From Isoperla grammatica (taxonomy: Eukaryota > Arthropoda > Insecta > Plecoptera > Perlodidae), in contig OX246744.1 of the NCBI GenBank assembly GCA_945910005.1, forward strand, positions 3,064,017 through 3,128,016: 64,000 nt of DNA, read 5' to 3'. The notes beneath the pieces were generated by a model. That model did not search any database. It was not told the DNA's origin and saw nothing but the letters and a program-made list of their open reading frames with translations. Positions 3,114 through 30,690 of the stretch are shown in pieces. How positions within the stretch are numbered: position 1 is the stretch's first letter; every line of letters begins with the position of its first letter. Position numbers and translations under genes: made by a program.

Positions 3114-3560
3114 TCGGGACGAGTTTAAGCAACATAATATTCTGGGTCAAACAGCTAACAAAGTTATAAATTAAAATATGTGTAGAACACATTTTCCATT
3201 TGTTTAAATTGATGACAATCTTGGTAGGTATTCACTTAGCTAAAAGGGTTTGCGTACACGAACATTTGCACCACGTAAAATATGAATTGCTTTTAAAATG
3301 TCACAAGGAAAATAGAATACCATCCCAGAGAATAAAGTGCCAACGTTTCTTATGAATAATGTGTTTTAAACTACCATATTGGATTTTTTAATGTGTTTGT
3401 AAAACCCTCTTGCACAATTAAAATGCCTAATTCAAAACAGAAACAAAAAACAGGTATAGGATGACATATTGTTTCGTGCTAATGGTAATTTGTAATTATT
3501 GTATTTGCCATTAATCTAGTTTTAAGCGGTAGGGAACACAAAGTCAAATCTTATTCACCA

Positions 3561-3740
3561 ATAGAGGTGGCTCAGCGGTAAGACGCGAGACTCAACTTGG
3601 GAGGTCGCCGGTTTGATTCCGGCCACCGGTAGTCTTGACTGAAAGCTTTTCCGAGGTTTGCTCCGTCGTAAAGGCGAATGCTGGACACTCCCTCCCTAAT
3701 ATACTTAGTTTGTCACCTGAAGAGTGGAACATCAAGATAA
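3561..3740 (+). mobile_element. tRNA-derived SINE copy
   Basis: Box A and box B are present (GGTTTGATTCC, one change); the 3' body is truncated after CACCTGAAGAG. Confidence 0.85.
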
Positions 3741-3779: not shown

Positions 3780-3965
3780 GGTACTGACCGTGAAGTTCTG
3801 CAGCGCCACCATCGCCTGTATGACGTCACCAACCCCTCTGTGGTGACCTTGATGTCATAAAAAGGTTTCCAATACTAACCGTGAACTTCTGCAGCGCCAC
3901 CATCGCCTGTATGACGTCACCAACCCCTCAATGGTGACCTTGATGCCATAAATAGGTTTCCAATA
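3780..3965 (-). repeat. Two extra copies of exon 11 donor edge
   Basis: ~91-bp units at 3782-3873 and 3874-3965 repeat the last ~50 coding nt of exon 11 (VGDVIQAMVALQKFT), its donor (GTCAGT or GTTAGT) and ~40 bp of intron. The most distal copy has Lys to Asn. Confidence 0.92.
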
Positions 3966-3970
3966 CTGAC

Positions 3971-4176
3971 CGTGAACTTCTGCAGCGCCACCATCGCCTG
4001 TATGACGTCACCAACCCCTCTGTGGTGGCCGTAGCGCCTCTGAGCGTCGATTCCGATGGACAGGGGGCTGGTGTCTCTGAGGCGGCAGTGAGGGGGGGTA
4101 GTGATACCATAGCTTGTACCCCTCGTGGTGGCGCCCCCGGCATAGCAGGCGCTCTGTAGCCTCGCAACCAGCACAT
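3971..4176 (-). CDS. Mab-21-like gene, exon 11 (last visible)
   Basis: 206 nt, acceptor TTGTACAG, phase 1 in and 0 out. It encodes VLVARLQSACYAGGATTRGT, RDTSPLSIGIDAQRRYGHHR and VGDVIQAMVALQKFT before a CG|GTCAGT donor. No stop codon is reached, so the gene should continue; no convincing further exon is seen in 1-3,780. The last ~50 nt with donor occur twice more downstream. Confidence 0.75.
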
Positions 4177-7100
4177 CTGTACAAGGACACACAAGCAGGT
4201 CACTCTAAACAGACTAGGTGCATTCTGGTGGCAATAAAATAAACTATTGTGTACAGGAGTTTTCTGTAAACTCTTCATTATTGTTTGATTGTGAAATCAT
4301 CCATGGCGCAGACAAAGAGGTTGTTTAGCAACTTGTAGCTTTTGAGTCTCCTAAATAGAGCACTACTTTATTCAAACAGTGCTAAGTGCACAATGAAGAT
4401 AGAACATGTATTATACATACCACGGGCAGACGATGGCGATGCTGTTGTTGTTGTTGTTGTTAGTCCTCCTCGCAGAGTGTTTTTCTTCAGCGTGTTGGCA
4501 GCACTGTTCTTGGTGTACGTTGACCTGGTAGTACTGATGGTAGAGAACTTGCTTTGTAACGAGACAACATCGTCAAATAGGACATTCATCGGCAACGCTA
4601 CGAACTCTCTCTTCACCTCACCCAGCCTCGGTGCAAATATTAGCTGTAGTCCCGGAGTCACGTTCCGTTCAATATCTAGAGAGAATATTTTCGCTTTTAT
4701 ATTCAAAAACTCCGATATTTCGATCATGTTCTTCGCCCAGTTCCATTTCTTGTGTAAAGCGTCCACGATCCCGTCTGAAGTGGATATTTTACCGTCGATG
4801 ATGAGTTTACAGAACGCGCCCAACGCTTCTAGTTCGTTCTTGTTGCCGTTCTCAGACTTGAGTAAACTCCGCCGCTTCCGCCATTCGTCAAGATGCCAAC
4901 AGTTCTCGTGCGACGACGCAAACAGGCTATTGAGGTAGGGTCTCAGAACGGGGCCGAAATTCCTCCTATCTTCGTCGAGAGCTCGATACAACCATCGCAA
5001 CACCTGTCGTACTAATGTGACGTCATCGCTAAGATGCGCAGTGGACGTTTCAACGTCTTTGCGCACCGCGTCGACGAGATACGCGACGGACGTGTCGAAG
5101 TGCGTCTTGAGTTTGGTGGCAGCGTCCGGGATGTGGTTGCGACCGTTTGCCGCCGCGTGGCGCGCCTTGCGTTGCGCGTGGGAGAACTGAGAGCGGCGGT
5201 GGTTGTTGTTGTTGTTGTTGTTGTCGCCGAGGGAGAGTTCTTTGGCTTGGTCGAGGATGGCGGTGAGGAGGTAGATGAGGTCTTCGACCGGGTCCTCGCG
5301 CTGGGCCCCTGGGACGTGAATGGGACCCTGGAGCCAGGGAGACGCGTGTTGGTTCTGAAACATGAGAGGTTGTTGCTTTTCTAAGTTTTCATCTACCCTG
5401 ACGAAAATATGTCTGTAGTAGAATACGATTCCTCACTTGAAGACGCTGACAAATAACACAGGCTGGTTTACACACTTACTTAAGAATTAAGATGTAATAT
5501 TTTGTACCTAGCACGTATTTTTGTAACTGTTTTACTTAGGATCGCTACCATTGGCCGGATTTATAAAACGTCGCCTCTCATTGGCTGGGCTAAGAAGTTT
5601 AGGTATGAGCTGAGGTTGCTATGGTTTCCTTAAATCTTACAAAGTTGTATGAATGCCATAATGCTTTTTGCACGATTCAACTTTTTAACATCTTAAAAAG
5701 GTGTGTATACCGACCTTAACCGAATGACGAAACTATATAAATACATCATCGAATCTCAATGGAGTTTGTTGGTGGCCACGTGAAAAGCAACCCACGTACA
5801 CTCTTGCAATGTTGTAAAGCTGTGATTATACAATTTCTAGGTACAGATTCTGGCTACAATTGCAGATTACAAATATGTCATATCTACCACGTGATTGGAT
5901 GCACAGAGCACATTAGAATGTAACTGCTGCAGATAATGAGAGAACAGGTTTCTATCTACTCTGGGAAACTTGCTATTAATGGGGTCGGTGTTGGAGGGGG
6001 GGGGGGGGGGGGGTGAGTTGGAGTATCTCATTGTACCAGCAGAGACCGCGTTCGTTTGCCAATTAGATAAAATGTTTTTTTTGAAAAGGAAAGAAAAAGA
6101 TTGTACAAGTTCATTGAAGAACCGTAATGAATTTCGTGGTTTTCCCGTTATACAAGAAATAAGTCAAAAGAAGTATTTTAGTAACACTTAATTGATTTCG
6201 TTTCAAACTTTTTATCAGAGTCGAACGAAATACTGAAAGTTGTGAAAAAGTTCTAGAAAAGAGATGACACACATTTTTCAAGTTTTCAAACAGAAAGAGA
6301 GAACTTTTCGCTAGTTGAAAAGATAGAACGTGTGGGAGAAACTTGTGCGAAATCAATCATTATGGGGGAGGTCTTGTAGACAACTAGATGGTTCTGTCTG
6401 GTCGACCAATTAGTGTCACAAGAACAGAGGAACGATTAAGACGGTTCCAGAGGTCAGTACGCCCATAGGTAGGGCTGCCAACTTTGGAATTCCGGACAAA
6501 ACTCCACTCAAAGCCGGTTGATTGAGGGCTTAGAATTGATTTATCTCAAATTATTAACTTAGAATTTGTAATTTGTTTATTTATTTATTCATAACGAAAA
6601 GGTAACACACAAGATGAGAATTTCAGACTTTTATACCCACCAATAGAGGTGGCTCAGCGATAAGACCCGATACTCTTATATGGGAGGTCTCAGGTTCGAT
6701 ACCGGCCACCGGCAATCCTGACTGTTGGTCTTTTGTGAGGTTTCCTCAGTCGTAAATCTAATAATACGTTAGTCTAATGATAAAAGCCTAGTTGTGAATG
6801 TTTTACCATTTAGTGGTGCATTGCTTTTGTTAAAATAGTTACACACGCTGTTACGATCATTCTTCGTAAATAGGTCTACATCTAGGAAAGAGTGGATTAA
6901 AAGCAAACCGAACGACCTGCAATGCAATATTAAATGTTGTGTACATTTTATACTGCACAACATTACATCATTTGTAAAGAAAAAACATTTCATTCTCTAA
7001 ATTAACCTTCTCGCGAATTTCGTTAACATCATTTCTCTATCTATGACGGAGCAACATACGTCTCGCGGGAGTGGTGGTCGGAATGTGGTGCTAAGCTGTG

Positions 7101-13100: not shown

Positions 13101-16100
13101 ACGACTAAGTGAAAGTTTTGTATGTGTATTTGTTTGTTTTTTGTTTTGTTTTCCAAAATCAGAAGAAATTATTTTTTGACATCTTATTGTTTGTCCATCG
13201 ATTCAATTCATTTGTTTCATTGTTGTCTTTTGGTGTTGCTAGTAGCCTTGCTATGAACCATTTTAAAGTTTCACCATGGCAACCACGATTCCTATTGGTT
13301 GTTGCCATGGTGAAAACAACTAACAAGTTTATAATACAGGGCCTTTGTTAGACCTATCGTCTTGTATTAGAATTATTTCATATGTTTACTTCTTGTGTAT
13401 AGAGCTGTGCTTTTTCTGTCAACCTCATTCATTATGTATGAATGGGAATGCATGATAAATATACTAAATGTGTTCCTACCTTGTGTTGGGTGGGGGTGAG
13501 AGGTCCTTCAAAACATCCGCCCATTTCTTGAGCAAGGCTCGCTCGACCTTCTCAGCGATAACATACCTCTGTAGAACCTGGAAGTGAGCAAATATTAAGC
13601 AACATTATCTCGGACTAATTTCTTCGTTGGAAGGCATTTTTTAAGATTCCTTACAACAATTTTAAATAATTTTAAAATATATATTATAACTTTCAGAAAT
13701 ACATCGTGTTTTGCACGTGGTACGTGTACTGTAAAAATTGTACTACATGTACATGTATAGTAAATTTATCGATTCGATATAACGTGTTATTACTACCCGG
13801 ATAATGGTTGTAAATTTTGTTCAATTGAAAATATTTATAGCGGGTTTTAGGGCTAGTTTTTAATTTAATTTTTTTGTCAAATGCCTTGTCAACACGTAGA
13901 CAGTTAGGTTTCATAATTAGAATTGAGCAATGGGTCTCCCTCACTTGGCGTCTTTCATTTATTGATGCACACTCTAGATGTAAATCCCCCTTCCCCTTTC
14001 CACCCCGTCCTCCTACTTGCCCCTTTCCTCCAAACAGCCCACTATTTCATCTTCATATATCACTTACTCATTGTCTCGATTAGCCTCGTTGCAAAAATAT
14101 GAGACGTTAAGCCCAAATATCAATCATCCAAGATGTAAGGGCGCGATTATTCATAGTATAAAGGATTCCAAAAATATTTGCTTTAAGGGGTATCGGTAGT
14201 CAATGATCACACTTACAGCGTCATCCTCAGTTGGGACCGGGGAGAGTGAGTCCTCATGCAGTCGCTTAAGGAAGTTCTCTACTATCTCGGCATCCACTAG
14301 GTAGTCCTCCTCGGAATGGTGGCTCACTCCGAACGCGGCGTGTAGCATTATGTTCTGGTAGGGGAAGCAGTAGGAACGATGCCGCTGCGTTCTCAGCGCG
14401 TGTATCAGGGTAGCAAACAGCGACAGGAGGTGGATAGGCAATGTATCAGGAGCCCAGCCGAGGAGGTGACTGGCGCATCGCTGCTCGAGGAGGAAGAAGA
14501 GAAATGTACGCAGCATGTAGCAGCTGACAACCTTCAGGACTTTCTGTGAACATAAAGTATTTGAATACAATCCGATGCATTCGCCGAGCGTGTATCAGGG
14601 TATCAAACAGTGAGAGGAGGTGTATGGAAAATGTATCAGGAGCCCAGCACAGGAGATGGCTGGTACATCGCTGCTCGAGGAGGAGGAAAAAGATTAATGT
14701 ACTAAGCATGTAGAAGCTGACAACTTTCAGGACTTTCTACCTAAAATATTCGAATAAACTCCCCTGCGTGTATCAGGGTATCAAAGAGTGACAAGAGGTG
14801 GATGGAAAATGTATCAGGAGCCCAGCAGAGGAGGTAGCTGGCGCATCTCTGCTCGAGGAGGACAAAGAATAATGCACGCAGCATGTAGCAGCTGATAACC
14901 TTCAGGACTGTTTGTGATAATTCAAAGTATTCAATGTATCAGGGTACGAGTAACAAGAGACGGGCTTTTAAAACCGTATCTTTTATTTTATAAAACAAAA
15001 TTTTTAATTAAACACACCACATAGATTTTTTCATCAATTCGCCATACTTCACTGACTTCATATAACTACACTGGCGATGCCGATTCTACTGGCCGCTTAG
15101 TAGCAGCAGGACAGAACCAACGAAATGCTAAAGCGAACAGATTTAATATAACGAAAGAGAAACCTAAATCAAATTTAATCGTGAAATTAAATGTTCTAAA
15201 TATAGATTGTAATATATTAAGTGAGGCGAGAACAGAAGGCAAGAAGTTAATTAAACAACTTCTCGCAGACTAATTGCGTTAGAAGTTATCAAATTACATT
15301 TCGTTCGTTCCGAGAAACGAGTTTAACCCCTTAAAAAGATACAACTAAAACTCATATTGAATTCTCGCGATAGAAGCGAGAAGTTCTCTTGAGTTTAGTG
15401 GACTCGGTCTGACCGTTAGAGTTGGCTCAGCGGTAAAAGGTCGCGGTTCGATACCGGACACCGGCTATCCTAACCGAGGGGGATTTTCCGAGGTTTTTCT
15501 CAATCACAAGGCGAATTCTAGGATCGAGTCCTACTTACAGCCCTTGAACATGCCTTCCCAACTGTTCCAAAATACCATAATACCAATAGTCACCTGTAGA
15601 GAGACATGGATTGTGCTTAGGCCGGTTTCCTACAAAAAACTTACAAATGTATTATTTGACTTTTTTGTATCCAACATATTATGTAGGATGTGTGGGGTCG
15701 GAGAACAAGACAGGAGACATTTCTTTGAGTGTACATATGTAAAGGATGAAAGGGACAAAATGCCAGGTGGGAACAGGAGCCCGATTCTCTAAATCTGTGG
15801 TAAATTTCTCACCGGTTTCTGACGTTACGGAAGGCAAATGGATGGCTGTGATTGGGTCACAGCCTTCTCATAACGACCAAAACCGGTGATCACCTTATCG
15901 TTGACCATAGAGAATCAAGGCCCTGGAGTCCTCTCACTACTGGCTGACCAGAAAATACATGATAACATGAGATGTCAATTGTGGGTATAAGAGAAGAAGA
16001 AGAAGAAGAAGAAGACTCGACTGTGGACGGGTTTGACCCCGACCCCACATGACAGGCGTCTTGTTGACTCTGCAGCGTCGCGACGCGAGTTGTTTACCGC

Positions 16101-19100
16101 AGGAAATGAACACTATTCAGCCGAGCTCGGTATTGTTTACCTACGTCACCGGAAACACATAAACACGACGCTCAGCTCGGGCGAGACATCCGGCCGTGAA
16201 TAAACAGATTTCACTCGTCCAAACGATGTGTTCGCACGTCCCATTTATTGCGTCGCGTTGATGTTCATCTAACAATACAGCTTCGTTTGATTTTTTTTTT
16301 TTTTTACCATTTTATTCCTTTCTCATACTCTTCTACACAAAACATAACTCAAATACATTGTCAACAATAAATAAACAAATTAACTAAATAAAACACAATA
16401 ATATAAGATAATAAGCCCGCAGAGAGCTACCTCTTGTGCGCGGGGCTTGTGGGGGGGGGGGGGGGAATTGATTGATTATCTGTTGGCCACGGCAACTATG
16501 ATCAAATGACGTCTGGTGTGTAATCGAGGAAATTGGAGGAAAAGGGAAATGACAAAATGTGAACTGTCTGTCGTCTGCCTCTTTTACCTCGACCTGACCG
16601 GCTAGGGTGGCCCTACCAGAAGCATACGCTTCCGCCAGCCTAGCTATCGGAATCAACGAAGCACGCGAACCTGTCACCACGGTAAGGTAGCAGTCCCTAG
16701 GCAGGTACAACCTTAGACCAGTAATATAGGTAGACGGAGTATGACGTCATCGCGAGTGAGACCATCATTGAAACCACGTGATGTGGGGACAAAGCCTTCT
16801 CGACCAATCCGCGATAGACTGCATTCTTAGCGAGAAGTTCGCAGGTTTGCCGCTAGATGGTGTTAAGTGCGCGGCAAATACGTTTGACATTTGATAAAGG
16901 ATGTATTATTATTTGTATTTCCTCAGAAATGATTAGTGAAGGTACTGTTGATCTTAGTTAACATTTTTAATTAGCACTTATTGAAAATGATCATTTTTCT
17001 TCACACAACGATGTACTGTTTGTACCACGTTTGTACTGTTCATACGCAGACGCTTTAAATTGCCGCGCATCCTGTCCCCACATCACGTGGTCTCAATGTT
17101 GGTCTCACTCGCGGCCGGTCGCTAGCATCGGCTTGCTCCGTCTACCTATATTACTGGTCTAAGGGTACAACTTCGATTTATATAGTATTTTGTATTGTGT
17201 CGCACTTTTCTAAACCGAATTCTTCCCAGCCTTCCAAACTAAATTTTTCTTAGCACTTTCAGTCTCTTACCAACGAGAATGTTTTGCCAACGTGCCACCA
17301 ATAGCCAGCTACAAATGTCTCACATCAATAGGTCAAAGGTGGGGATTCGGTGGGTGTTTAATTCGAAAAGATAAAGCATGACTGATAATTAGAAGACAAA
17401 GACCGAAAACAAATTGTTGAAGGAAATGCGTAAGATCATGATGAAGTGAGCAAAGAGATGATGTAAGAAATAAAGGACAGCCCTCTTTGCGGGCAACGTT
17501 TACCAGACGACGAAAGGAGACCCTGTCCCTCCCTCCATTTCATATCCCACTATAGATTTCTCCTCCCAGTTGACCAATGCCCTCCCTTGCTCGACTCCCC
17601 TTATGACGACCCCCGCGATGTGCAATGGATCTGATTCGAACATGTGGCAGTTAATTCATCTTCATATTTCACCCACTCATCGTCTCGATTAGCCAAGTTT
17701 CACAAATATGGGACGTTAAGGGCCGTTTACATAAATGACAAGTGATTAGTGTCAGCCTCTATGATGAAGCCTTAGGCTAGCTTCTTCCATTGAGAATACT
17801 GCGCTCTGATTGGCTGTGACTAAGGTTTGTCTTGACTTGACTAAGGAATTGAACATATTCAGAGCCAATCAGAGCACAGTATTCTTCCTCCCAGCCAATG
17901 AAAGAAGCTTGTGGCTTAATTACGGATGTTAGTCAATAATCACTAGTCATTTGTGTAAACCCCACTTTAAACTCAAAGATCGTCATCATCTCGAAAAAGA
18001 ACTCACCTTCCCGCGACCTTGAGGCAGCCCGAACCCTCCCAGGGACTGTCTACTCCGCCGCCCCCTCAACTGTTGAACGATCGTCTCCGCCAAGGTCAAC
18101 ACCCTCATAGGAACACTGGACGACGAGTAGTGAGTCAGTAGTGCCAACTCTGCGGCGGGTGTCCACATCTGCCACGTTGCCATTCGGTCGTCACAGCGCA
18201 CAGTGGTGTGCGGAGCGGCCGGAACTAGGTAGAACCCCTGGAACATAGTGACGTCATGATACACTGCCACGTTGCCATGCGGTCGTCACAGCGCACAGTG
18301 GTGTGCGGAGCGGCTGGAACTAGGTAGAACCCCTGGAACATAGTGACGTCATGATACACTGCCACGTTGCCATTCGGTCGTCACAGCGCACAGTGGTGTG
18401 CGGCGCGGCCGGTACTAGGTAGAACCCCTGGAACACAACGTTGCCACGTTTATGTCCAATATTACATTGCACTGACATATGATTCTAAAGTTCCGTCGCG
18501 GGGTTAACAAGCAATGTGAGCGAAAGACATTCTCAGAAGAAACGGTCTATTTTCCAGATATCTGCTTGTTATTGTCCACTGCACAGACTCCACCAACCTC
18601 ACGTGGAATGCACTTGGATAACGCCTGCCAACAGACGGGCTGATATTATCACTGTAATGCCGAAGGCATGAGAATGAGTTTCAACCAGGTTTAGCTTCAT
18701 CACACGCGTCATTTCACTATTACATAATCCAAGACGACACGGAACACTAGACAATCTATGAACGTCTCCAACGAGTTTTATTTATTGTCTAGTACTGAGC
18801 TAATTTTGGGCACAATTTGTTCATTCATAAGATTAGCCTTTTGTTTCTAAGAGGCGATATGAATCGCGTTAAGATATGCAACGTTTATAATCCGCTACTT
18901 GACAGAACAGATGACTTACCGTCTGTGCGACCTGCTGGTAAAGCAGACAGTCCACGTGGCCAAGCGGGACTCGCCCCGGAAAGTCGCAGGTCTGCGGCCA
19001 CCCCTGGGACCCGATCCCCAGCACTAGTTTGACCTCCACGTCCTCCGCGCTGGGGTCACCGTCGGTGGCGAGGGACGGTGACAGGAACCCCACCCTGAGC

Positions 19101-22100
19101 CGCACATCCGGCGACGACTCCACGATGGCAATGCGGAAGTCTCGGGGGTCCGGGTAGCGGCTCTGCTTGCAGTCTGCTGTACACACCAACCAACATGGTT
19201 ATACCATGGACTTACAACTATAGTTGTACCAAGACTACCTTACACATGCTTTCCTGCTTTCATGCGGCTCTGCTTGCAGTCTGCTGTACACACCGACCAA
19301 CATTGTTATACCATGGACTTACAACTATAGTTGTCCCAAGACTACCTTACACATGCTTTCCTGCTTTCATGCGGCTCTGCTTGCAGTCTGCTGTACACAC
19401 CGACCAACATTGTTATACCATGGACTTACAACTATAGTTGTCCCAAGACTACCTTACACATGCTTTCATGCTTTCATGCGGCTCTGCTTGCAGTCTGCTG
19501 TACACACCGACCAACATTGTTATACCATGGACTTACAACTATAGTTGTCCCAAGACTACCTTACACATGCTTTCATGCTTTCATGCGGCTCTGCTTGCAG
19601 TCTGCTGTACACACCGACCAACATTGTTATACCATGGACTTACAACTATAGTTGTCCAAAGACTACCTTACACATGCTTTCATGCGGCTCTGCTTGCAGT
19701 CTGCTGTACACACCGACCAACATTGTTATACCATGGACTTACAACTATAGTTGTCCAAAGACTACCTTACACATGCTTTCATGCGGCTCTGCTTGCAGTC
19801 TGCTGTACACACCGACCAACATTGTTATACCATGGACTTACAACTATAGTTGTCCCAAGACTACCTTACACATGCTTTCATGCGGCTCTGCTTGCAGTCT
19901 GCTGTACACACCGACCAACATTGTTATACCATGGACTTACAACTATAGTTGTCCCAAGACTACCTTACACATGCTTTCATGCTTTCATGCGGCTCTGCTT
20001 GCAGTCTGCTGTACACACCGACCAACATTGTTATACCATGGACTTACAACTATAGTTGTCCCAAGACTACCTTACACATGCTTTCATGCTTTCATGCGGC
20101 TCTGCTTGCAGTCTGCTGTATCACCGACCAACATTGTTATACCATGGACTTACAACTATAGTTGTCCCAAGACTACCTTACACATGCTTTCATGCTTTCA
20201 TGCGGCTCTGCTTGCAGTCTGCTGTACACACCGACCAACATTGTTATACCATGGACTTACAACTATAGTTGTCCCAAGACTACCTTACACATGCTTTCAT
20301 GCTTTCATGCGGCTCTGCTTGCAGTCTGCTGTACACACCGACCGACATTGTTATACCATGGACTTACAACTATAGTTGTCCCAAGACTACCTTACACATG
20401 CTTTCATGCTTTCATGCGGCTCTGCTTGCAGTCTGCTGTACACACCGACCAACATTGTTATACCATGGACTTACAACTATAGTTGTCCCAAGACTACCTT
20501 ACACATGCTTTCATGCTTTCATGCGGCTCTGCTTGCAGTCTGCTGTACACACCGACCAACATTGTTATACCATGGACTTACAACTATAGTTGTCCCAAGA
20601 CTACCTTACACATGCTTTCATGCTTTCATGCGGCTCTGCTTGCAGTCTGCTGTACACACCGACCGACATTGTTATACCATGGACTTACAACTATAGTTGT
20701 CCCAAGACTACCTTACACATGCTTTCATGCTTTCATGCGGCTCTGCTTGCAGTCTGCTGTACACACCGACCAACATTGTTATACCATGGACTTACAACTA
20801 TAGTTGTCCAAAGACTACCTTACACATGCTTTCATGCGGCTCTGCTTGCAGTCTGCTGTACACACCGACCAACATTGTTATACCATGGACTTACAACTAT
20901 AGTTGTCCAAAGACTACCTTACACATGCTTTCATGCGGCTCTGCTTGCAGTCTGCTGTACACACCGACCAACATTGTTATACCATGGACTTACAACTATA
21001 GTTGTCCAAAGACTACCTTACACATGCTTTCATGCGGCTCTGCTTGCAGTCTGCTGTACACACCGACCAACATTGTTATACCATGGACTTACAACTATAG
21101 TTGTCCAAAGACTACCTTACACATGCTTTCATGCGGCTCTGCTTGCAGTCTGCTGTACACACCGACCAACATTGTTATACCATGGACTTACAACTATAGT
21201 TGTCCAAAGACTACCTTACACATGCTTTCATGCGGCTCTGTTTGCAGTCTGCTGTACACACCGACCAACATTGTTATACCATGGACTTACGAGAGTACAG
21301 CCTAGTAATTTTCGTAGTAATACCCGTTCTAGGGTGCACACCAGCTTTACCTGATGTGCCCCTCTTCAGGTGACAACTAGGTTATTAGGGTGTTTGGATA
21401 GCTAGGAAGGAATGTTCGAGAGCTGTTAGTGGGTTTCGATCCCAGCATTCGCCTTTACGACTGAGGAAATCTTGAGGAAAAACCCTCAGTCAGGACTGCC
21501 GGTGGCCGGAACCGAGCCGGCGACCTCCCGAATTAGAGTCTCGCGTCTCAACGCTGAGCTACCTGTATCGGTTAGTTTAGTACCAGTATAACCATCAACT
21601 TACAATAGTAACTTCGTTAGGTTGGTCCAATGGTTTGCATGACAAGCCTCATTCATTAGTCACGACCGCTATTCCTGGTAACTAAAAAAGCGCTGAGAGT
21701 ACGTGTTACGTGATACGTAGACTGGCGTCGGTCATTGAAGCTCACACACTTCTAGAACCGTGAGGAGTGACACAAGCGCGCGTTTAAAGTGTCTACATTA
21801 AGTTACATTAAAAATTCTCGAAAAAATATTCGACATCTCGATATTTGGCAATAATTCGATACATATCGATATTCGATTACGATTCCGTTGGGCATCTCTA
21901 AAATTCATTTTATGCGGGGGCTATGAAGTGGACGTAAAACCTTCGCAAGTGCGATGGCGAGACTGCGAGGGGGGAGGGGAGGGGGGGGTCGTGACGTCAT
22001 AGGGAGGTCATCCTAGGGAGTCCATAGCAGAGACATCCACACATGAATAACTTGGCAGGCCACTCATGTTGGATGCCCCCCCTCCCCCCCCCCCTCCCCC

Positions 22101-25100
22101 CCTCCAGCCGTTCAACTCTGGCACGGATAGTTTGGAAGTGGTTTGACGACGCGGCCCCAACTTTTCTCGTCGCTTTTTCAACCCTCCCGCTTCATTTCGA
22201 CGTGTGCAGCGTAACAGTTGGGTCTTTTGGAGCAAAGAAGACAATAAAGAAGAAGTTTGATTTTTGCAGTTTTTTCATTTTATTCTAGGATCGACTGTCT
22301 GAACAGAGAAATACTTTATTTTGATAAGGTCCAGTCTTACAATGTCCCGATAACTACTTATTCGTCGAATAGCTTGTTGTCTCCATGGCAACGACCAATC
22401 AAAACCATTTAAATCCTCCAAATTGCTAATAAATTATTTAATTAATTGCTACAAATAACTTTCTTATCATGGAGATTGTAAGACCGGCCCTAAGTTTGAC
22501 TAGATGAAAGTTTTACACGTGTTTATTGGGGGGAATGGGGCATAACGTCGTTAAACCGTATCAGCAATCAACCTATCATATAATGATGAGCGAGATTATT
22601 CTTATTTGCAGATTGTCTTACAAATGTAATTATTATTTGGAAGGATTCAAATTTTGGTGTTTGGTGTACCTAACCTAATAATAACTGTTTTCATAGATTA
22701 TCAGAACATACTTTGGTTTCTTATTAATGTCAGAACATACTTTGGTTTCTTATTAAAAAGATATGACAGCAACTAGTCATTGTTATGTAAAGAAGTGACA
22801 ACGGCTGGAGTTATAAGTTGTAGGGCCAGTCTTACAATCTCCTAATAAGGGAGTTATTTGTAGCAATTAAGCTATTTGGAGGATTTCAAGGGTTTTGATT
22901 GGTGGTTGCCATGGAGATAACAAGCTATTCGACGAAAAAGAAGTTATTGGGACATTGTAAGACTGGGCCTTAATTAGTTCAGTCACGTTCCATAATATTC
23001 TTAATGTTTATTTAATCTCCATAATTTCAATTCCTTTCAAGATAATTAAATAGGTATTGTTTGTACGTCTGTATATCATATTTTATTGACCCCAATTGAA
23101 TTCGTATTTTTGTTCGCAGGTTTTTAGTTAGTTAAATAACTACCCACCAGTACCATAGAAGACTTGTTGGTCCGGGGGCAGCTTTAGAATCTCGTGCAAG
23201 ACTCCCACGTCCACCACTTTACCAGGACTACCGCACAACCTGGACTCGTCTACGTCATCAGGGCGGAGGGGGGCGGCAGCGCGCGCGGCGGACAACGCCA
23301 GAAGCTCCACAAACCGTTCCTGGCGAGTAAACGTTAATAATTATGATAATACATCATTATTATGTAAGGTTTGAATACAATTTCAACATTGTCACCACTT
23401 TCCTATTATTATGTACTTACTTAAAGTCATTTTCGAATGATATGGGATTGAATTTAGGGCCGGTATTTCAATGTCCAGTTAAAAATATCTTCTTTTCAGT
23501 TAAATTGTTTTCACCATGACAACGGCCAATAGAAATACACCAAACTGGGCTTACCTGACAGTTAAATTTACTTGACACTTTAACAGGACATTGAAATTAC
23601 ACAGGTGGTGAATTCAATTGAAATGAATAACTGAATTGAGTTGTGTTAATTGAATTGACAACGGAATATCATCATTATTGAGACGGAAAAATTACCGTAC
23701 ATCGAGTTCTTTCGGTCATAATCGGAACGTTTCGTACGAGACTGCCCTTTAATTGGACCACACTTAGGATAAAATTTGGAATTTGAAACATTTCTTGATT
23801 TTGAGTTAGCGGTTAAGGTTACTGTTAGTAGCATGCAAGATACATACATCCATACATTATTAGTTAAATAAATAAAATAAATTCACATTTAGAGTCTACC
23901 CACTCAGTACTAAACTGATTTGCAGTGGGGGACTTTAATTTAAAGCGTCTAAACCAACCCTGTAGGCTCCGAACACCATCGACGAGTGAGCGATAACCAA
24001 TCAAAGATCTATATTTTAAATACGAAACATATGAATCAGTGATTTGACAGTGCGAATACCAGCGGACAAATGCCAGAATCAACAAGGCCGATTCAAAACA
24101 ACTTTGAATTTATTGAGTGCTTCGTTGCTAAAAGTTCAAGTTTTGGCATGAAAGGGTCTTTAAGCTCGGGAACTACAAAGTCTTGACCCTCACCTGTATT
24201 TTGTCTCTCCTTAGGAACCCCAGATGATTGATAAACTCCGCCCACTCATCAGCGCCCTCGCCCTGAACTCTGACCTTCGCGAACCCCTGCGGACACCCGT
24301 CACCCCCCACCCCCTCCACCACCCGGCACGTGGGCTGGGCAACGTCAGGGTACAGGGACGGTGAGGACAGCGCGTCCATGCGTACCAGGTACTCGAACCT
24401 GTAGCGTCCTCCGCCCTGTAACAAACACTGTGATGACAGCCACCCCTAGGACAGTCCCCCGCCCCCTCCACCACGTGGGGTGGGTGACGTCGGGGTACAG
24501 GGACGGTGAGGACAGCGCGTCCATGCGTACCAGGTACTCGAACCTGTAGCGTCCTCCGCCCTGTAACAAACACTGTGATGACAGCCACCCCTGAGGACAG
24601 CCCCCCGCCCCCCCACCACGTGTGCGTGTGCGTGTGCGTGTGCAGGCTCACCTTGCCCCCTGTCTCCCGGTGGTCGCTGAGAGACACCAGATACTTGGAG
24701 GCGAACCTCTCATCCAGGGTCCCAGCGCCATAGACCAGACGCTGCACTAGAGTGCGTGTGCGTGTGCGTGTGCGTGTGCCGGCTCACCTTGCCCCCTGTC
24801 TCCCGGTGGTCGCTGAGAGACACCAGATACTTGGAGGCGAACCTCTCATCCAGGGTCCCAGCGCCACAGACCAGACGCTGCACTAGAGTGCGTGTGCGTG
24901 TGCGTGTGCGTGTGCGTGTGCGTGTGCGTGTGCGTGTGCGTGTGCGTGTGCGTGTGCGTGTGCAGGCTCACCTTGCCCCCTGTCTCCCGGTGGTCGCTGA
25001 GAGACACCAGATACTTGGAGGCGAACCTCTCATCCAGGGTCCCAGCGCCACAGACCAGACGCTGCACTAGAGTGCGTGTGCGTGTGCGTGTGCGTGTGCG

Positions 25101-28100
25101 TGTGCGTGTGCGTGTGCGTGTGCAGGCTCACCTTGCCCCCTGTCTCCCGGTGGTCGTAGAGAGACACCAGATACTTGGAGGCGAACCTCTCATCTAGGGT
25201 CCCAGCGCCACAGACCAGACGCTGCACTAGAGTGCGTGTGCGTGTGCGTGTGCGTGTGCGTGTGCGTGTGCGTGTGCGTGTGCGTGTGCGTGTGCAGGCT
25301 CACCTTGCCCCCTGTCTCCCGGTGGTCGCTGAGAGACACCAGATACTTGGAGGCGAACCTCTCATCCAGGGTCCCAGCGCCACAGACCAGACGCTGCACT
25401 AGAGTGCGTGTGCGTGTGCGTGTGCGTGTGCGTGTGCGTGTGCGTGTGCGTGTGCGTGTGCGTGTGCAGGCTCACCTTGCCCCCTGTCTCCCGGTGGTCG
25501 CTGAGAGACACCAGATACTTGGAGGCGAACCTCTCATCCAGGGTCCCAGCGCCACAGACCAGACGCTGCACTAGAGTGCGTGTGCGTGTGCGTGTGCGTG
25601 TGCGTGTGCGTGTGCGTGTGCGTGTGCGTGTGCGTGTGCAGGCTCACCTTGCCCCCTGTCTCCCGGTGGTCGTAGAGAGACACCAGATACTTGGAGGCGA
25701 ACCTCTCATCTAGGGTCCCAGCGCCACAGACCAGACGCTGCACTAGAGTGCGTGTGCGTGTGCGTGTGCGTGTGCGTGTGCGTGTGCGTGTGCGTGTGCG
25801 TGTGCCGGCTCACCTTGCCCCCTGTCTCCCGGTGGTCGCTGAGAGACACCAGATACTTGGAGGCGAACCTCTCATCCAGGGTCCCAGCGCCGCAGACCAG
25901 ACGCTGCACTAGAGTGCGTGTGCGTGTGCGTGTGCGTGTGCGTGTGCGTGTGCGTGTGCGTGTGCGTGTGCGTGTGCCGGCTCACCTTGCCCCCTGTCTC
26001 CCGGTGGTCGCTGAGAGACACCAGATACTTGGAGGCGAACCTCTCATCCAGGGTCCCCGCGCCGCAGACCAGACGCTGCACTAGAGTGCGTGTGCGTGTG
26101 CGTGTGCGTGTGCGTGTGCGTGTGCCGGCTCACCTTGCCCCCTGTCTCCCGGTGGTCGCTGAGAGACACCAGATACTTGGAGGCGAACCTCTCATCCAGG
26201 GTCCCTGCGCCACAGACCAGACGCTGCACTAGAGTGCGTGTGCGTGTGCGTGTGCGTGTGCGTGTGCGTGTGCGTGTGCGTGTGCGTGTGCGTGTGCGTG
26301 TGCGTGTGCGTGTGCGTGTGCGTGTGCGTGTGCGTGTGCGTGTGCGTGTGCGTGTGCGTGTGCGTGTGCGTGTGCGTGTGCGTGTGCGTGTGCGTGTGCG
26401 TGTGCAGGCTCACCTTGCCCCCTGTCTCCCGGTGGTCGCTGAGAGACACCAGATACTTGGAGGCGAACCTCTCATCGAGGGTCCCAGCGCCACAGACCAG
26501 ACGCTGCACTAGAGTGCGTGTGCGTGTGCGTGTGCGTGTGCGTGTGCGTGTGCGTGTGCGTGTGCAGGCTCACCTTGCCCCCTGTCTCCCGGTGGTCGCT
26601 GAGAGACACCAGATACTTGGAGGCGAACCTCTCATCCAGGGTCCCAGCGCCACAGACCAGACGCTGCACTAGAGTGCGTGTGCGTGTGCGTGTGCCGGCT
26701 CACCTTGCCCCCTGTCTCCCGGTGGTCGCTGAGAGACACCAGATACTTGGAGGCGAACCTCTCATCCAGGGTCCCGGCGCCACAGACCAGACGCTGCACT
26801 AGAGTGCGTGTGCGTGTGCGTGTGCGTGTGCGTGTGCCGGCTCACCTTGCCCCCTGTCTCCCGGTGGTCGCTGAGAGACACCAGATACTTGGAGGCGAAC
26901 CTCTCATCCAGGGTCCCAGCGCCACAGACCAGACGCTGCACTAGAGTGCGTGTGCGTGTGCGTGTGCGTGTGCGTGTGCCGGCTCACCTTGCCCCCTGTC
27001 TCCCGGTGGTCGCTGAGAGACACCAGATACTTGGAGGCGAACCTCTCATCTAGGGTCCCGGCGCCACAGACCAGACGCTGCACTAGAGTGCGTGTGCGTG
27101 TGCGTGTGCGTGTGCGTGTGCGTGTGCGTGTGCCGGCTCACCTTGCCCCCTGTCTCCCGGTGGTCGCTGAGAGACACCAGATACTTGGAGGCGAACCTCT
27201 CATCCAGGGTCCCAGCGCCGCAGACCAGACGCTGCACTAGAGTGCGTGTGCGTGTGCGTGTGCGTGTGCGTGTGCGTGTGCGTGTGCGTGTGCGTGTGCA
27301 GGCTCACCTTGCCCCCTGTCTCCCGGTGGTCGCTGAGAGACACCAGATACTTGGAGGCGAACCTCTCATCCAGGGTCCCAGCGCCACAGACCAGACGCTG
27401 CACTAGAGTGCGTGTGCGTGTGCGTGTGCGTGTGCGTGTGCGTGTGCGTGTGCGTGTGCCGGCTCACCTTGCCCCCTGTCTCCCGGTGGTCGCTGAGAGA
27501 CACCAGATACTTGGAGGCGAACCTCTCATCCAGGGTCCCAGCGCCGCAGACCAGACGCTGCACTAGAGTGCGTGTGCGTGTGCGTGTGCGTGTGCGTGTG
27601 CGTGTGCGTGTGCGTGTGCGTGTGCCGGCTCACCTTGCCCCCTGTCTCCCGGTGGTCGCTGAGAGACACCAGATACTTGGAGGCGAACCTCTCATCCAGG
27701 GTCCCGGCGCCACAGACCAGACGCTGCACTAGAGTGCGTGTGCGTGTGCGTGTGCGTGTGCGTGTGCGTGTGCGTGTGCGTGTGCGTGTGCGTGTGCGTG
27801 TGCGTGTGCCGGCTCACCTTGCCCCCTGTCTCCCGGTGGTCGCTGAGAGACACCAGATACTTGGAGGCGAACCTCTCATCCAGGGTCCCAGCGCCACAGA
27901 CCAGACGCTGCACTAGAGTGCGTGTGCGTGTGCGTGTGCGTGTGCGTGTGCGTGTGCGTGTGCGTGTGCGTGTGCGTGTGCGTGTGCAGGCTCACCTTGC
28001 CCCCTGTCTCCCGGTGGTCGCTGAGAGACACCAGATACTTGGAGGCGAACCTCTCATCCAGGGTCCCAGCGCCGCAGACCAGACGCTGCACTAGAGTGCG

Positions 28101-30690
28101 TGTGCGTGTGCGTGTGCGTGTGCGTGTGCGTGTGCGTGTGCGTGTGCCGGCTCACCTTGCCCCCTGTCTCCCGGTGGTCGCTGAGAGACACCAGATACTT
28201 GGAGGCGAACCTCTCATCCAGGGTCCCGGCGCCGCAGACCAGACGCTGCACTAGAGTGCGTGTGCGTGTGCGTGTGCGTGTGCGTGTGCGTGTGCCGGCT
28301 CACCTTGCCCCCTGTCTCCCGGTGGTCGCTGAGAGACACCAGATACTTGGAGGCGAACCTCTCATCCAGGGTCCCCGCGCCGCAGACCAGACGCTGCACT
28401 AGAGTGCGTGTGCGTGTGCGTGTGCGTGTGCGTGTGCCGGCTCACCTTGCCCCCTGTCTCCCGGTGGTCGCTGAGAGACACCAGATACTTGGAGGCGAAC
28501 CTCTCATCCAGGGTCCCAGCGCCGCAGACCAGACGCTGCACTAGAGTGCGTGTGCGTGTGCGTGTGCGTGTGCGTGTGCGTGTGCGTGTGCGTGTGCCGG
28601 CTCACCTTGCCCCCTGTCTCCCGGTGGTCGCTGAGAGACACCAGATACTTGGAGGCGAACCTCTCATCCAGGGTCCCAGCGCCACAGACCAGACGCTGCA
28701 CTAGAGTGCGTGTGCGTGTGCGTGTGCGTGTGCGTGTGTGTGTGCGTGTGCGTGTGCGTGTGCGTGTGCGTGTGCGTGTGCGTGTGCGTGTGCGTGTGCG
28801 TGTGCGTGTGCGTGTGCGTGTGTGTGTGCGTGTGCGTGTGCGTGTGCGTGTGCGTGTGCGTGTGCGTGTGCGTGTGCGTGTGCGTGTGCGTGTGCGTGTG
28901 CGTGTGCGTGTGCGTGTGCCGGCTCACCTTGCCCCCTGTCTCCCGGTGGTCGCTGAGAGACACCAGATACTTGGAGGCGAACCTCTCATCCAGGGTCCCA
29001 GCGCCACAGACCAGACGCTGCACTAGAGTGCGTGTGCGTGTGCGTGTGCGTGTGCGTGTGCAGGCTCACCTTGCCCCCTGTCTCCCGGTGGTCGCTGAGA
29101 GACACCAGATACTTGGAGGCGAACCTCTCATCCAGGGTCCCAGCGCCACAGACCAGACGCTGCACTAGAGTGCGTGTGCGTGTGCGTGTGCGTGTGCGTG
29201 TGTGTGTGCGTGTGCGTGTGCGTGTGCGTGTGCGTGTGCGTGTGCGTGTGCGTGTGCGTGTGCGTGTGCGTGTGTGTGTGCGTGTGCGTGTGCGTGTGCG
29301 TGTGCGTGTGCTGGTGCGTGTGCGTGTGCGTGTGCGTGTGCGTGTGCGTGTGCGTGTGCGTGTGCGTGTGCGTGTGCGTGTGCGTGTGCGTGTGCCGGCT
29401 CACCTTGCCCCCTGTCTCCCGGTGGTCGCTGAGAGACACCAGATACTTGGAGGCGAACCTCTCATCCAGGGTCCCAGCGCCACAGACCAGACGCTGCACT
29501 AGAGTGCGTGTGCGTGTGCGTGTGCGTGTGCGTGTGCAGGCTCACCTTGCCCCCTGTCTCCCGGTGGTCGCTGAGAGACACCAGATACTTGGAGGCGAAC
29601 CTCTCATCCAGGGTCCCCGCGCCGCAGACCAGACGCTGCACTAGACGCTCGATCACGACGCCGACGACGCTCACCGTCTTGTCGCGTCGCAGATCGCTCA
29701 CCGCACCTGCAAGCATATTATCAGGTCACTCACCGCACCTGCAAGCATATTGACAGGTCACTCACCGCACCTGCAAGCATATTGACATGTTGTATTGCAC
29801 CTGCAAGCATATTGGCAGGTTGGTATTGCACCTGCAAGTATATTGTCTTGTTGGTATTGCACATCCAAACATGTTGTATGTTGGTATTGCACCTGCAAGT
29901 ATATTACCATGTTGGTATTGCACCTGCAAGTATATTGTCTTGTTGGTATTGCACATCCAAACATGTTGTATGTTGGTATTGCACCTGCAAGTATATTGTC
30001 ATGTTGGTATTGCACATTCAATCATATTGTCATGTTGGTATTGCACCTGCAAGTATATGGCCATGTTGGTATTGCACCTGCAAGTATATGGCCATGTTGG
30101 TATTGCACCTGCAAGTATATTGTCATGTTGGTATTGCACCTGCAAGTATATGGCCAGGTTGGTATTGCACCTGCAAGCATATTGGCAGGTTGGTATTGCA
30201 CCTGCAAGTATATTGGCATGTTCGTATTGCACATGAAAACATATTGTCATGTTGGTATTTCACATGCAAGTATATTGTCGGGTTGGTATTGCATCTGCAA
30301 GCATATTGTCATGTTGGTATTGCACATGCAAGCATATTGTCAGGTTGGTATTGCACCTGCAAGTATATTGTCATGTTAGTATTGCACATGTAATCATATT
30401 GTCTGTTAGTATTGCACCTGCAAGTATATGGCCAGGTTGGTATTGCACCTGCAAGCGTATAGTATGTTGGTACTGTACCTGCAAGCATAAAGTATGTTGG
30501 TATTGCACCTGCAAGATCTGTTGCTCTTACCGTTTCTGTTCTCCTGTTCCATCCTCGCGAGATGAAGGTTCAGCCTCGTGACCTGATCCTTGCTGAACTT
30601 GAGCTGCGATCCCGATAGTTTGACATCTGCGTGACCCCTCGACGTGTGGGGGTCCCCGCCCCCCTCCTCCCTGCTCGGGCAGCTGCCCAT
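3971..30690 (-). CDS. Mab-21 / TMEM102-like protein, 11 visible exons, 3' end outside window
   Basis: Exons, in transcription order: 30690-30531, 29706-29546, 24415-24194, 23319-23148, 19176-18920, 18237-18007, 14543-14217, 13577-13480, 12701-12575, 5354-4421, 4176-3971. All junctions are GT-AG and phases match throughout, giving 965 codons. Residues about 30-510 resemble the Mab-21 nucleotidyltransferase-like fold: an N-terminal helix, FEYLVRMDAL, WAEFINHLGFLRRDKIQERF (like the Mab-21 stretch ending in RKIRSRF), GWPQTCDFPG (like GIWPRSA), GFYLVPA (as in TMEM102), and YMLRTFLFFLLEQR before the C-terminal helices. The acidic residues needed for catalysis in cGAS-like enzymes are not evident, so it is probably a non-catalytic member; this is inference. 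Residues 511-965 are a long extension with Asn and Thr runs. The start has an in-frame stop 21 nt upstream. Seven junctions carry tandem arrays (separate entries). Function unknown. Confidence 0.83.
4421..5354 (-). CDS. Mab-21-like gene, exon 10 (long C-terminal extension)
   Basis: 934 nt, acceptor GTTTCAG, donor G|GTATGT, phase 0 in and 1 out. It encodes 311 residues outside the Mab-21 fold: EDPVEDLIYLLTAILDQAKE, a seven-Asn run, then helices including VRQVLRWLYRALDEDRRNFG and ALGAFCKLIIDGKISTSDGI, and near the end six Thr. The Asn and Thr runs come from AAC and ACA type trinucleotide repeats. I do not recognise this region as a named domain. Confidence 0.82.
6641..6757 (+). mobile_element. 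tRNA-derived SINE copy, 3' truncated
   Basis: AGAGGTGGCTCAGCGATAAG to CCTCAGTCGTAAA; head only. Confidence 0.85.
7685..7905 (+). mobile_element. 5' truncated copy of the 5S-like SINE
   Basis: Body from CACCGTCCTTTCAGATGGGA to an (AATA)n tail. The head is missing. Confidence 0.65.
8278..8640. repeat. ~39-bp AT-rich tandem repeat
   Basis: About nine units of TTAATATGTATTTTAATTGA plus CCAATTCGTATG variants. The open reading frame through part of it is a by-product of the 39-bp (13-codon) period. Confidence 0.92.
9060..9905. repeat. Diverged tandem repeat with GTGGTATGTCACGCAGG core
   Basis: Units of ~150-180 bp; the core recurs at about 9322, 9471, 9649 and 9831. A segment near 9225 resembles the 32-kb repeat (AACAAATCAAGGGTTTATGTG), so the two arrays may be related. 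Confidence 0.75.
9961..10105. mobile_element. Hairpin MITE (GAATGCATAGT family)
   Basis: TGTCAAATGCATAGTCGTTC against GAAACGACTATGCATTTGA; the centre has two inverted CAATCACAGAGC sites. Confidence 0.83.
11131..11170. repeat. (TATTG)n pentanucleotide repeat
   Basis: About seven TATTG units followed by a T-run, within intron 9 of the Mab-21-like gene. Confidence 0.9.
11790..12525 (-). mobile_element. Second 5S-like SINE copy, split by ~300-bp insertion
   Basis: The tail and body lie at 11790-11992 and the head at about 12297-12525 (GTGGTCACCCACCCTCCTTT). The intervening ~300 bp is absent from the 61-kb copy, where TCATATAGGTTCC is continuous. Confidence 0.62.
12575..12701 (-). CDS. Mab-21-like gene, exon 9
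   Basis: 127 nt between CTGTGCAG and CAG|GTGAGA. It enters in phase 2 and leaves in phase 0, exactly bridging exons 8 and 10. It encodes a basic segment followed by QYTTRQLDYISHLFREML. Found from splice signals and phase, not from homology. The opposite strand also reads open with GC-rich third positions, so RNA evidence would be decisive. Confidence 0.68.
13480..13577 (-). CDS. Mab-21-like gene, exon 8
   Basis: 98 nt, phase 0 in and 2 out, TTCCAG acceptor, AAG|GTAGGA donor. It encodes VLQRYVIAEKVERALLKKWA then DVLKDLSPPPNT, a helix and Pro-rich end. It is too short to stand alone; it is supported by splice phase and orientation. Confidence 0.78.
13970..14125 (-). repeat. Dispersed repeat, left part only
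   Basis: The reverse-strand relative of 55885-56030 (CATTGTCTCGATTAGCCTCG, TATGAGACGTTAAGC), within intron 7 of the Mab-21-like gene. Confidence 0.65.
14217..14543 (-). CDS. Mab-21-like gene, exon 7 (C-terminal helical domain)
   Basis: 109 codons, phase 0-0, acceptor TTCACAG and donor GCT|GTAAGT. SCYMLRTFLFFLLEQR and the following helices through LIHALRTQRHRSYCFPYQN match the C-terminal Mab-21 helices (S-Y-x-L-K-T-L, then a short loop ending HYF-P). Two diverged tandem copies of its first ~160 nt lie upstream. Confidence 0.87.
14575..14950 (-). repeat. Two diverged copies of exon 7 5' part
   Basis: Units of ~170 bp at about 14581-14757 and 14762-14945 repeat the acceptor region and ~50 codons of exon 7 (from KVLKVVS to LIHA). 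They carry substitutions and small indels, so they are older than the other arrays and probably non-functional exon relics. Confidence 0.9.
15417..15640 (+). mobile_element. tRNA-derived SINE copy with deleted head segment
   Basis: Box A is followed after a short deletion by GGTTCGATACC. The body ends GGCCGGTTTCCTACAAAAAA. A LINE fragment follows directly. Confidence 0.82.
15640..15760 (+). pseudogene. LINE C-terminal fragment with Cys-His motif
   Basis: It reads CRMCGVGEQDRRHFFECTYV KDERDKM, matching the CX2C...HX4C end of non-LTR retrotransposon ORF2 proteins. It lies between a SINE and a MITE and has no other ORF2 part. Confidence 0.6.
15778..15926. mobile_element. MITE-like inverted repeat
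   Basis: CCCGATTCTCT against AGAGAATCAAGGCC, with ACCGGTTT and AAACCGGT inside. Confidence 0.65.
16560..16703 (+). repeat. Dispersed repeat (CCCTACCAGAAGCATACG family), left part of a split copy
   Basis: GGGTGGCCCTACCAGAAGCA to AAGGTAGCAGTCCCTAGGCA; its right part resumes after the 452-bp transposon (TTCGATTTATATAG against TTGAAGTTTACATAG in the 55.9-kb copy). Confidence 0.68.
16712..17163. mobile_element. Non-autonomous DNA transposon with ~90-bp TIRs and 8-bp target duplication
   Basis: 452 bp. The ends are inverted copies (CTTAGACCAGTAATATAGGT and its complement) and remain similar further in (CGCGAGTGAGACCA, CACGTGATGTGGGGACA). Flanked by perfect GGTACAAC at 16704-16711 and 17164-17171. 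An 8-bp duplication suggests the hAT (or P) superfamily. No transposase. It interrupts another dispersed repeat. Confidence 0.9.
17520..17719 (-). repeat. Dispersed repeat, left part only
   Basis: CATCGTCTCGATTAGCCAAG and ATGGGACGTTAAG match the 14.1-kb and 55.9-kb copies; joined directly to the MITE at 17720. Confidence 0.62.
17720..17963. mobile_element. MITE with ~100-bp imperfect TIRs
   Basis: GGGCCGTTTACATAAATGAC against GTCATTTGTGTAAACCCC, then AATACTGCGCTCTGATTGGC against its complement. Confidence 0.82.
18007..18237 (-). CDS. Mab-21-like gene, exon 6
   Basis: 77 codons, phase 0-0, acceptor TTCCAG|GGG and donor AAG|GTGAGT. It begins GFYLVPAAPH; a FYLVP motif at this position is characteristic of TMEM102. 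It then encodes the helix WQMWTPAAELALLTHYS. Two extra tandem copies of its first 69 nt plus acceptor lie just upstream. Confidence 0.87.
18238..18440 (-). repeat. Two extra copies of exon 6 5' part
   Basis: 95-bp units repeat the acceptor and first 23 codons of exon 6 (GFYLVPAAPHTTVRCDDRMA TWQ) with a 26-bp linker. Differences from exon 6 (GTT/GTA, CCG/CCA, GCT/GCG, CGA/CGC) are all synonymous. Confidence 0.93.
18920..19176 (-). CDS. Mab-21-like gene, exon 5
   Basis: 257 nt, phase 1 in and 0 out, donor ACG|GTAAGT. It encodes the central strands: YPDPRDFRIAIVESSPDVRL, DVEVKLVLGIGSQGWPQTCD and GHVDCLLYQQVAQT. The GSQGWPQ segment matches the conserved GIWPRSA region of Mab-21 proteins. The exact 5' edge is ambiguous by 3 nt (ACAG or ACAGCAG). 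The acceptor and first ~20 nt form part of the adjacent 107-bp satellite. Confidence 0.84.
19177..21295 (-). repeat. 107-bp satellite with exon 5 acceptor, ~20 units
   Basis: About 20 head-to-tail units of 107 bp, some 98 bp by loss of a 9-bp repeat. Each includes the first ~20 nt of exon 5 with its ACAG acceptor (CTGCTGTACACAC on the plus strand), a short intron piece, and an ACAACTATAGTTGT palindrome followed by CCAAGACTACCTTACACATG, which matches the end of a hairpin element at 53791-53942. Units are nearly identical, showing recent homogenisation. Confidence 0.95.
21320..21575 (-). mobile_element. tRNA-derived SINE copy, near full length
   Basis: Reverse copy with body (GGTGCACACCAGCTTTACCT) and head (GAGCTACCTGTATCGGTTAG). 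It lies at the distal end of the exon 5 satellite. Confidence 0.87.
22328..22490. mobile_element. MITE (GGNCCAGTCTTACAAT family), TAA target
   Basis: 163 bp with TIRs GGTCCAGTCTTACAATGTCC and GGGCCGGTCTTACAATCTCC, flanked by TAA. It includes CCATGGCAACGACCAATCAA. Confidence 0.85.
22701..22758. repeat. Tandem 30-bp duplication
   Basis: Two adjacent copies of a unit beginning TCAGAACATACTTTGGTTTC. Confidence 0.9.
22823..22970. mobile_element. MITE, same family as 22.3 kb, opposite orientation
   Basis: 148 bp, TIR GGGCCAGTCTTACAATCTCC, internal sequence is the reverse of the neighbour 330 bp away. Confidence 0.83.
23148..23319 (-). CDS. Mab-21-like gene, exon 4
   Basis: 172 nt, phase 0 in and 1 out, with a GCCAG acceptor and ACTG|GTGGGT donor. 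It begins ERFVELLALSAARAAAP, which continues the helix started in exon 3 as in Mab-21 proteins. It is GC-rich compared with its introns. No tandem copies flank this exon. Confidence 0.85.
23457..23604. mobile_element. MITE related to the 22-kb pair
   Basis: GGGCCGGTATTTCAATGTCC and its inverted counterpart GGACATTGAAATTACAC; about 148 bp. Confidence 0.72.
23878..24130 (-). repeat. Dispersed repeat (GTCCCCCACTG family)
   Basis: About 250 bp shared with 53610-53765 and 55130-55540: AGTGGGGGACTTTAATTTAA, GAGTGAGCGATAACCAATCA, GGACAAATGCCAGAATCAAC. Class unknown. Confidence 0.75.
24194..24415 (-). CDS. Mab-21-like gene, exon 3
   Basis: 74 codons, phase 0 to 0, acceptor GTTACAG and donor CAG|GTGAGG. 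It encodes the first strands of the core (RYRFEYLVRMDAL) and WAEFINHLGFLRRDKIQ, the most recognisable Mab-21 segment. The two-acid metal-binding motif of active enzymes is not seen after FEYL. Its acceptor half is duplicated once immediately upstream. Confidence 0.87.
24416..24580 (-). repeat. Extra partial copy of exon 3 acceptor half
   Basis: About 145 bp repeats the exon 3 acceptor and its first ~28 codons (GGGRYRFEYLVRMDALSS and on), with the preceding intron bases. The copy changes coding after Asp-Val and lacks the rest of the exon, so it is not usable as a full exon. Confidence 0.9.
24620..29545 (-). repeat. 28 truncated tandem copies of Mab-21-like exon 2, each with donor site and (GTGTGC)n
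   Basis: Starting next to exon 2 and running into intron 2, a unit of about 105 bp repeats 28 times. It holds the last 90 coding nt of exon 2 (RLVCGAGTLDERFASKY to ETGGK), the GTGAGC donor, then a (GTGTGC)n tract of about 24 to 230 bp; the longest are 26230-26405, 28702-28919 and 29166-29396. Each copy is preceded by TAGTGCAG, a possible acceptor. Differences between copies are few and mostly at third codon positions. Read-through of one unit ends at a stop in the next, because the hexamer keeps the frame constant. Confidence 0.95.
29546..29706 (-). CDS. Mab-21-like gene, exon 2 (full-length copy)
   Basis: This 161-nt exon encodes AVSDLRRDKTVSVVGVVIER, then LVQRLVCGAGTLDERFASKY, then LVSLSDHRETGGK. 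It enters in phase 1, leaves in phase 0, and has an AAG|GTGAGC donor. It is the only copy with both the 5' part and the 3' part. Its 3' 90 nt plus donor are repeated 28 more times downstream, and its acceptor is repeated many times upstream. Near-identical acceptors at about 29740 and 29773 would also be usable. Confidence 0.85.
29700..30520 (-). repeat. ~31-bp minisatellite carrying the exon 2 acceptor
   Basis: About 26-27 units of ~31-32 bp. On the gene strand each contains a variant of ATATACTTGCAG|GTGCAAT, the same sequence as the exon 2 acceptor and its first coding bases. The three units nearest the exon keep GTGCGGTGAG and are almost perfect copies of the junction; distant units drift at the exon side. 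Confidence 0.93.
30531..30690 (-). CDS. Mab-21-like gene, exon 1 (initiator)
   Basis: It begins MGSCPSRE and ends in phase 1 at a good donor (G|GTAAGA). Gly2 with Ser6 fits the N-myristoylation consensus and Cys4 could be palmitoylated, suggesting membrane attachment (inference). The last part (KFSKDQVTRLNLHLARMEQE) matches in position the first helix of Mab-21 proteins. A TAA lies in frame at 30709-30711, so no upstream in-frame start exists unless an exon joins at the AG at 30706. Confidence 0.78.

Follow-up and report, generated by a model that had tools for sequence, protein, structure and literature searches.

Minisatellites whose units span exon-intron boundaries, a rare arrangement, have been described in amphioxus under the name of mirages, in the globin genes BflGb6 and BflGb9 and in Adh3 (PMC3087553), and mirages of PGBD5 and troponin C were added by PMC3902484. 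As far as the available part of the first report goes, RT-PCR indicates regular splicing of the genes concerned, splice signals are present in many, not all, of the units, the arrays are unstable in length and their cause is called unclear (PMC3087553). Mirages have so far been noted gene by gene in amphioxus (PMC3087553), and none outside lancelets was recognised among the matches listed in a search with most subscription journals outside its scope; the accessible portions of PMC8724738 and PMC4192438 contain nothing on junction-spanning arrays. Tandem duplication is also known from intron gain, as in the near intron pairs of Drosophila (PMC2891723) and the RdRp gene of potato (PMC4974935), and an ordinary intronic minisatellite with a 27-bp unit is described in intron 3 of the abalone TSSK1-like gene (PMC6905558), in each case as given in the accessible extracts.

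The locus considered here is a minus-strand gene in a window of 64,000 nucleotides (the whole stretch of DNA analysed), with nine visible exons, GT-AG introns, compatible phases and a single open frame of 890 amino acids obtained from the native copies alone. The exons run from 30690 to 3971, and their junctions are predicted, built from the sequence and accepted because of this open frame, which is their main support. Exon 1 (30531..30690; all exons and arrays given below are likewise on the minus strand) begins at an ATG chosen between candidates, a further one lying upstream in a different frame, so its start codon is uncertain; its frame was joined through all exons, and its donor reads GAAACG followed by gtaaga. 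The native copy of exon 2 (29546..29706) was placed by phases and GT-AG, and the gene model gives those of exon 3 (24194..24415), exon 5 (18920..19176), exon 6 (18007..18237), exon 7 (14217..14543) and exon 9 (3971..4176, its acceptor free of arrays), together with exon 4 (23148..23319) and exon 8 (4421..5354), which have no array at either end. A coding scan found no 3' end of the gene. The same scan led to the rejection of extra exons in the 8.9-kb intron 7, between exons 7 and 8, where the best score was 8.7 against 18.3-70.0 for seven known exons, these being the exons on which the scan was trained. It preferred an exon 5 acceptor 36 nt inside the exon, and its score fails to separate copies from exons, values of up to 22.8 being reached by the extra copies in intron 2. 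The protein has no family above a curated cut-off: the Pfam family Mab-21_C matched the exon 7 frame with 19.5 bits, below its curated cut-off of 24.1, and the joined exons 4 to the start of 8 with 16.7 bits, again below it, and such a match would be a weak lead and no name for the gene. Solved structures, tried as a route to its identity, returned weak matches only, to immunoglobulin-binding protein A (best E = 0.032), and one match at E = 1.4.

Tandem Repeats Finder and self-comparison detected tandem arrays at 7 of the 17 visible junctions of this gene, 5 of 8 acceptors and 2 of 9 donors (p = 0.15 for the difference), between 3782 and 30515. All seven junction-bearing arrays announced in a preliminary description of the window are present; the copy numbers listed there (2, 3, 3, 3, about 20, about 27 and 29) agree if read as sorted by size, and the array assigned there to the donor of an exon 11 sits at exon 9. 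Copy counts given here include the native copy. The exon 2 acceptor array (29690..30515) consists of units of about 31 bp, 26 of them anchored and one further unanchored. Exon sequence occurs only in the last three units, the native one included, and the other 23 of the 26 anchored units carry no recognisable exon sequence past GTGC; the AG has been lost in 6 of the 26. The exon 2 donor array (24619..29645) has 29 copies of the last 99 exon nucleotides with the donor, 95-99% alike over 109 nt and all with the GT kept, separated by spacers of nearly pure (CACACG)n of 24 to 228 nt. All 28 spacings are equal modulo 6 (= 4), and the spacers therefore vary by whole hexamers. For homogenisation between neighbouring copies of this array, the test gave 51 differences, the mean being 55.8, which falls short of significance (p = 0.17).

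The exon 3 acceptor array (24304..24622) has two copies, 145 bp apart, both with AG, and the exon 5 acceptor array (19157..21290) has 21, spaced by 99 or 106-107 bp, every one of them with AG. At two positions, the native exon 5 copy departs from 19 of the 20 extra copies, the same two in each; the twentieth carries a one-base deletion and was left unaligned. At the exon 6 acceptor (18169..18435) there are three copies of a 95-bp unit, AG being kept in all three, and at the exon 7 acceptor (14382..14909) three diverged copies, about 80-86% alike, in one of which the AG has moved 4 nt further on. Upstream of the first exon 7 copy, TACCCTGATACA at 14930-14960 on the minus strand may be the remnant of a fourth. 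The exon 9 donor array (3782..4030) holds three copies of a 91-bp unit, each with its GT; in the outermost, 1 of 55 positions differs in the exon part versus 19 of 35 in the intron part. The earlier statement that every unit crosses a boundary and keeps its splice dinucleotide is correct as to crossing for six arrays outright, and at the exon 2 acceptor for the last 3 of 26 anchored units only; as to the dinucleotide it applies throughout the exon 2 donor, exon 3, 5, 6 and 9 arrays, and to 20 of the 26 anchored units at the exon 2 acceptor and two of the three exon 7 copies at the original place. The separate origins proposed there are borne out by differences among the arrays in sequence, in divergence and in unit length, which runs from 31 to about 180 bp. 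TGACGTCA was considered as a shared motif causing them; it is found in some units, yet occurs 10 times in the window, and was dropped.

The reading preferred here, with a probability of roughly 0.68, is that of seven independent mirage minisatellites which arose by local duplication and survive because splicing hides copies that cross a junction. Each array would start as a local duplication, through break repair or slippage, and would grow by unequal exchange or conversion. Duplications lying wholly within exons would be removed by selection, and a duplication crossing a junction would survive because splicing still uses the copy joined to the complete exon, the extra copies turning into intron. 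GC-rich exons may be the duplication-prone part of the gene, which would put arrays at exon edges and not deep in the introns; GC is 0.586 in the exons of this gene, 0.388 in its array-free introns and 0.470-0.531 in the exons of its neighbours, the argument being a correlation drawn from a single gene. Every one of the 20 spacers of the exon 5 array matches 31 bp (53914-53944) of an inverted-repeat element. Such filler at the joint of a duplication would be in keeping with template switching during repair synthesis. The element itself (53792-53944), with arms of 58 bp that are 76% alike, is probably a MITE, one end of which matches the exon 5 filler.

Tolerance alone leaves the excess of arrays at junctions over intron interiors unexplained. 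Under a model that scatters duplications of the observed lengths randomly over the gene and excludes any that are confined to an exon or contain a whole one, 0.58 of 10 founding duplications would be expected on junctions, and seven or more have P = 8e-8; with the arrays of the exon 2 acceptor and of exon 7 set aside, five of eight lie on junctions (P = 2e-5), figures which describe this locus only, the gene having been picked for its pattern and the ten arrays being author-chosen. These ten are the seven junction arrays and three purely intronic ones (8293; 9304-9904; 22701); short or low-complexity repeats of the gene were left out (7375/7385, 11126, 12516, 22076, and the runs of hexamers within the array at the exon 2 donor). 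In the neighbouring genes, a BLAST scan found no near repeat at 17 junctions, 10 in UGT, 6 in Spo11 and 1 in Pym, hand-placed from splice consensus and open frames; the scan also missed the exon 2 acceptor array, so that short diverged arrays elsewhere could escape it. Tandem Repeats Finder placed no array across a UGT, Spo11 or Pym junction either, in agreement with the earlier claim for these genes; a tandem repeat at the exon 1 donor of Spo11 begins 12 nt inside the intron, without crossing the junction. The comparison of 7 of 17 with 0 of 17 gives p = 0.007 (two-sided Fisher test), again for this locus only. The UGT matches human UGT2B structures and, presumably, resembles arthropod UGTs by its motifs, and Spo11 matches topoisomerase VI A and SPO11; Pym, its last exon included, has no Pfam match and bears the name given to it in the preliminary description.

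The most credible of the alternatives, though an unlikely one, is that boundaries are duplication hotspots, owing to a process tied to splicing or transcription, and that sequence passes between one or more of the arrays and the functional exon, whereby the variants are filtered. Such filtering is proposed because of the excess of synonymous changes among the exon 2 donor copies discussed below, which plain neutral decay does not predict and which stands against the reading of the copies as passengers. If the hotspot interpretation were true, no gene before this one would be known to carry mirages at many junctions, and, among the matches listed, the mirages here would be the first outside lancelets. 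A process directed to junctions without such exchange, in which the junctions here are duplicated time after time (through transcription-associated breaks or R-loops at exon edges, for instance), would draw on the placement figures and the array-free junctions of the three neighbours; it is nonetheless rather improbable, given the post hoc choice of the gene, a mechanism that is hypothetical and the simpler bias offered by GC-rich exons. The three purely intronic arrays count against it, and they count against the passenger reading as well.

A further source of arrays, or of their copy numbers, would be mis-assembly. Long arrays are difficult to assemble, and one amphioxus mirage was wrongly assembled in a draft, according to the available part of PMC3087553. 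However, the copies here have variants of their own and spacers of differing length in the regular hexamer register already noted, and several arrays consist of just two or three copies, easily spanned by reads, which makes an artefact very unlikely.

Whether the extra copies, 80 over the seven arrays, are used was approached with 20 of them: 4 at the exon 2 acceptor, 4 at the exon 2 donor, 1 at exon 3, 5 at exon 5, and 2 each at exons 6, 7 and 9. When a copy is taken as the splice site and reading continues into the real exon, a stop codon is encountered in 20 of 20 cases, in two of them without a frameshift; therefore, in this mode, the protein can be made only with the copy joined to the complete exon. 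As judged from the predicted transcripts, the additional copies seem to be passengers that are tolerated, and not splice sites in use. The earlier proposal that such duplication is tolerated, or is useful because either copy can be spliced, is consequently retained in its first half, the better supported one, and finds no support in its second among the copies tested. The case for function, the copies serving as alternative splice sites or as cassette exons of 90 nt, comes from the exon 2 donor array: GCAG, 90 open nucleotides in phase 0 and GTGAGC are kept in 29 of 29 copies, and of its 9 changes 6 are synonymous, the expected share being 27% (p = 0.014). However, copies so much alike are expected to keep an open frame without selection, (CACACG)n makes a poor pyrimidine tract before the AG, and read-through use ends in stops. 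Two of the non-synonymous changes are adjacent and occur in the same copies, so they may be one event, and the surroundings of sites 20 and 26 are rich in CpG. The synonymous excess could reflect exchange with the constrained native exon, chance or CpG hotspots, and function for some of the arrays is hardly to be expected. A decaying pseudogene that accumulates arrays without selection, which the lack of a family above cut-off, the lack of a solved-structure match and the many arrays might suggest, is scarcely credible for 890 open amino acids over nine exons with compatible phases and GT-AG introns, and for exon 7 copies that tend to differ at third codon positions (24 of 50 differences).

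The window holds further repeats. A 119-bp unit is present in 10 copies at 62789-64000, running off the window end, with no splice junction recognised in it by eye, and a 178-bp unit in 7 copies at 32277-33593, upstream of the gene with the junction arrays. A dispersed repeat, 75-86% alike, occupies seven places (51610-51850, 21334-21572, 58759-58941, 3557-3684, 2912-3113, 6639-6751 and 15438-15596) and resembles a tRNA-derived SINE; ARAGORN found no tRNA in the window. The only Rfam match is 5S rRNA-like (61544-61667, minus strand, 48.2 bits) and may belong to a SINE derived from 5S. Two palindromic elements related to each other, at 57223-57535 in a UGT intron and at 9996-10103 in intron 7 of the array-bearing gene, are probably MITEs. 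Upstream of the last Pym exon, from 42281 downwards on the minus strand, lies a long open frame, probably the ORF of a retrotransposon, whose beginning is Cys/His-rich and PHD-like.

Seven arrays of different ages beside array-free genes allow a bias in origin to be tested against survival. The gene also permits tests of how splicing singles out one of as many as 29 almost identical sites, and of a possible contribution of junction arrays to the gain of exons or introns. For gene prediction, such copies are a potential source of error.

The abalone TSSK1-like minisatellite, from what its report makes available, is like the present arrays in unit size and length variation and differs in that the units here include coding sequence and a splice site. 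The intron gains by tandem duplication share with this locus the local copying of coding sequence bearing splice signals; as far as the sources are accessible, in those cases a new intron comes out of exonic sequence, whereas here existing junctions were copied. The likeness is greatest with the amphioxus mirages. In the portions of those reports that are available, as in this gene, tandem units of intron end, splice site and exon edge lie at acceptors and at donors, measure tens to about 160 bp and keep AG or GT in many, not all, cases, and the native copy stands at the array edge, partly outside homogenisation; the edges of the BflGb6 array can be likened to the two private positions of the native exon 5 copy. 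Within the same limits, this gene differs from the amphioxus cases in its seven mirages in one gene, in up to 29 copies versus 3-6 in BflGb6, in a probable arthropod host, in an embedded hexamer microsatellite and in a filler that matches a transposon end. Were the DNA that of a lancelet, the gene would add one more case to a host already known for mirages. On their sequence features, the arrays belong to the mirage kind, and their density in one gene is unusual.
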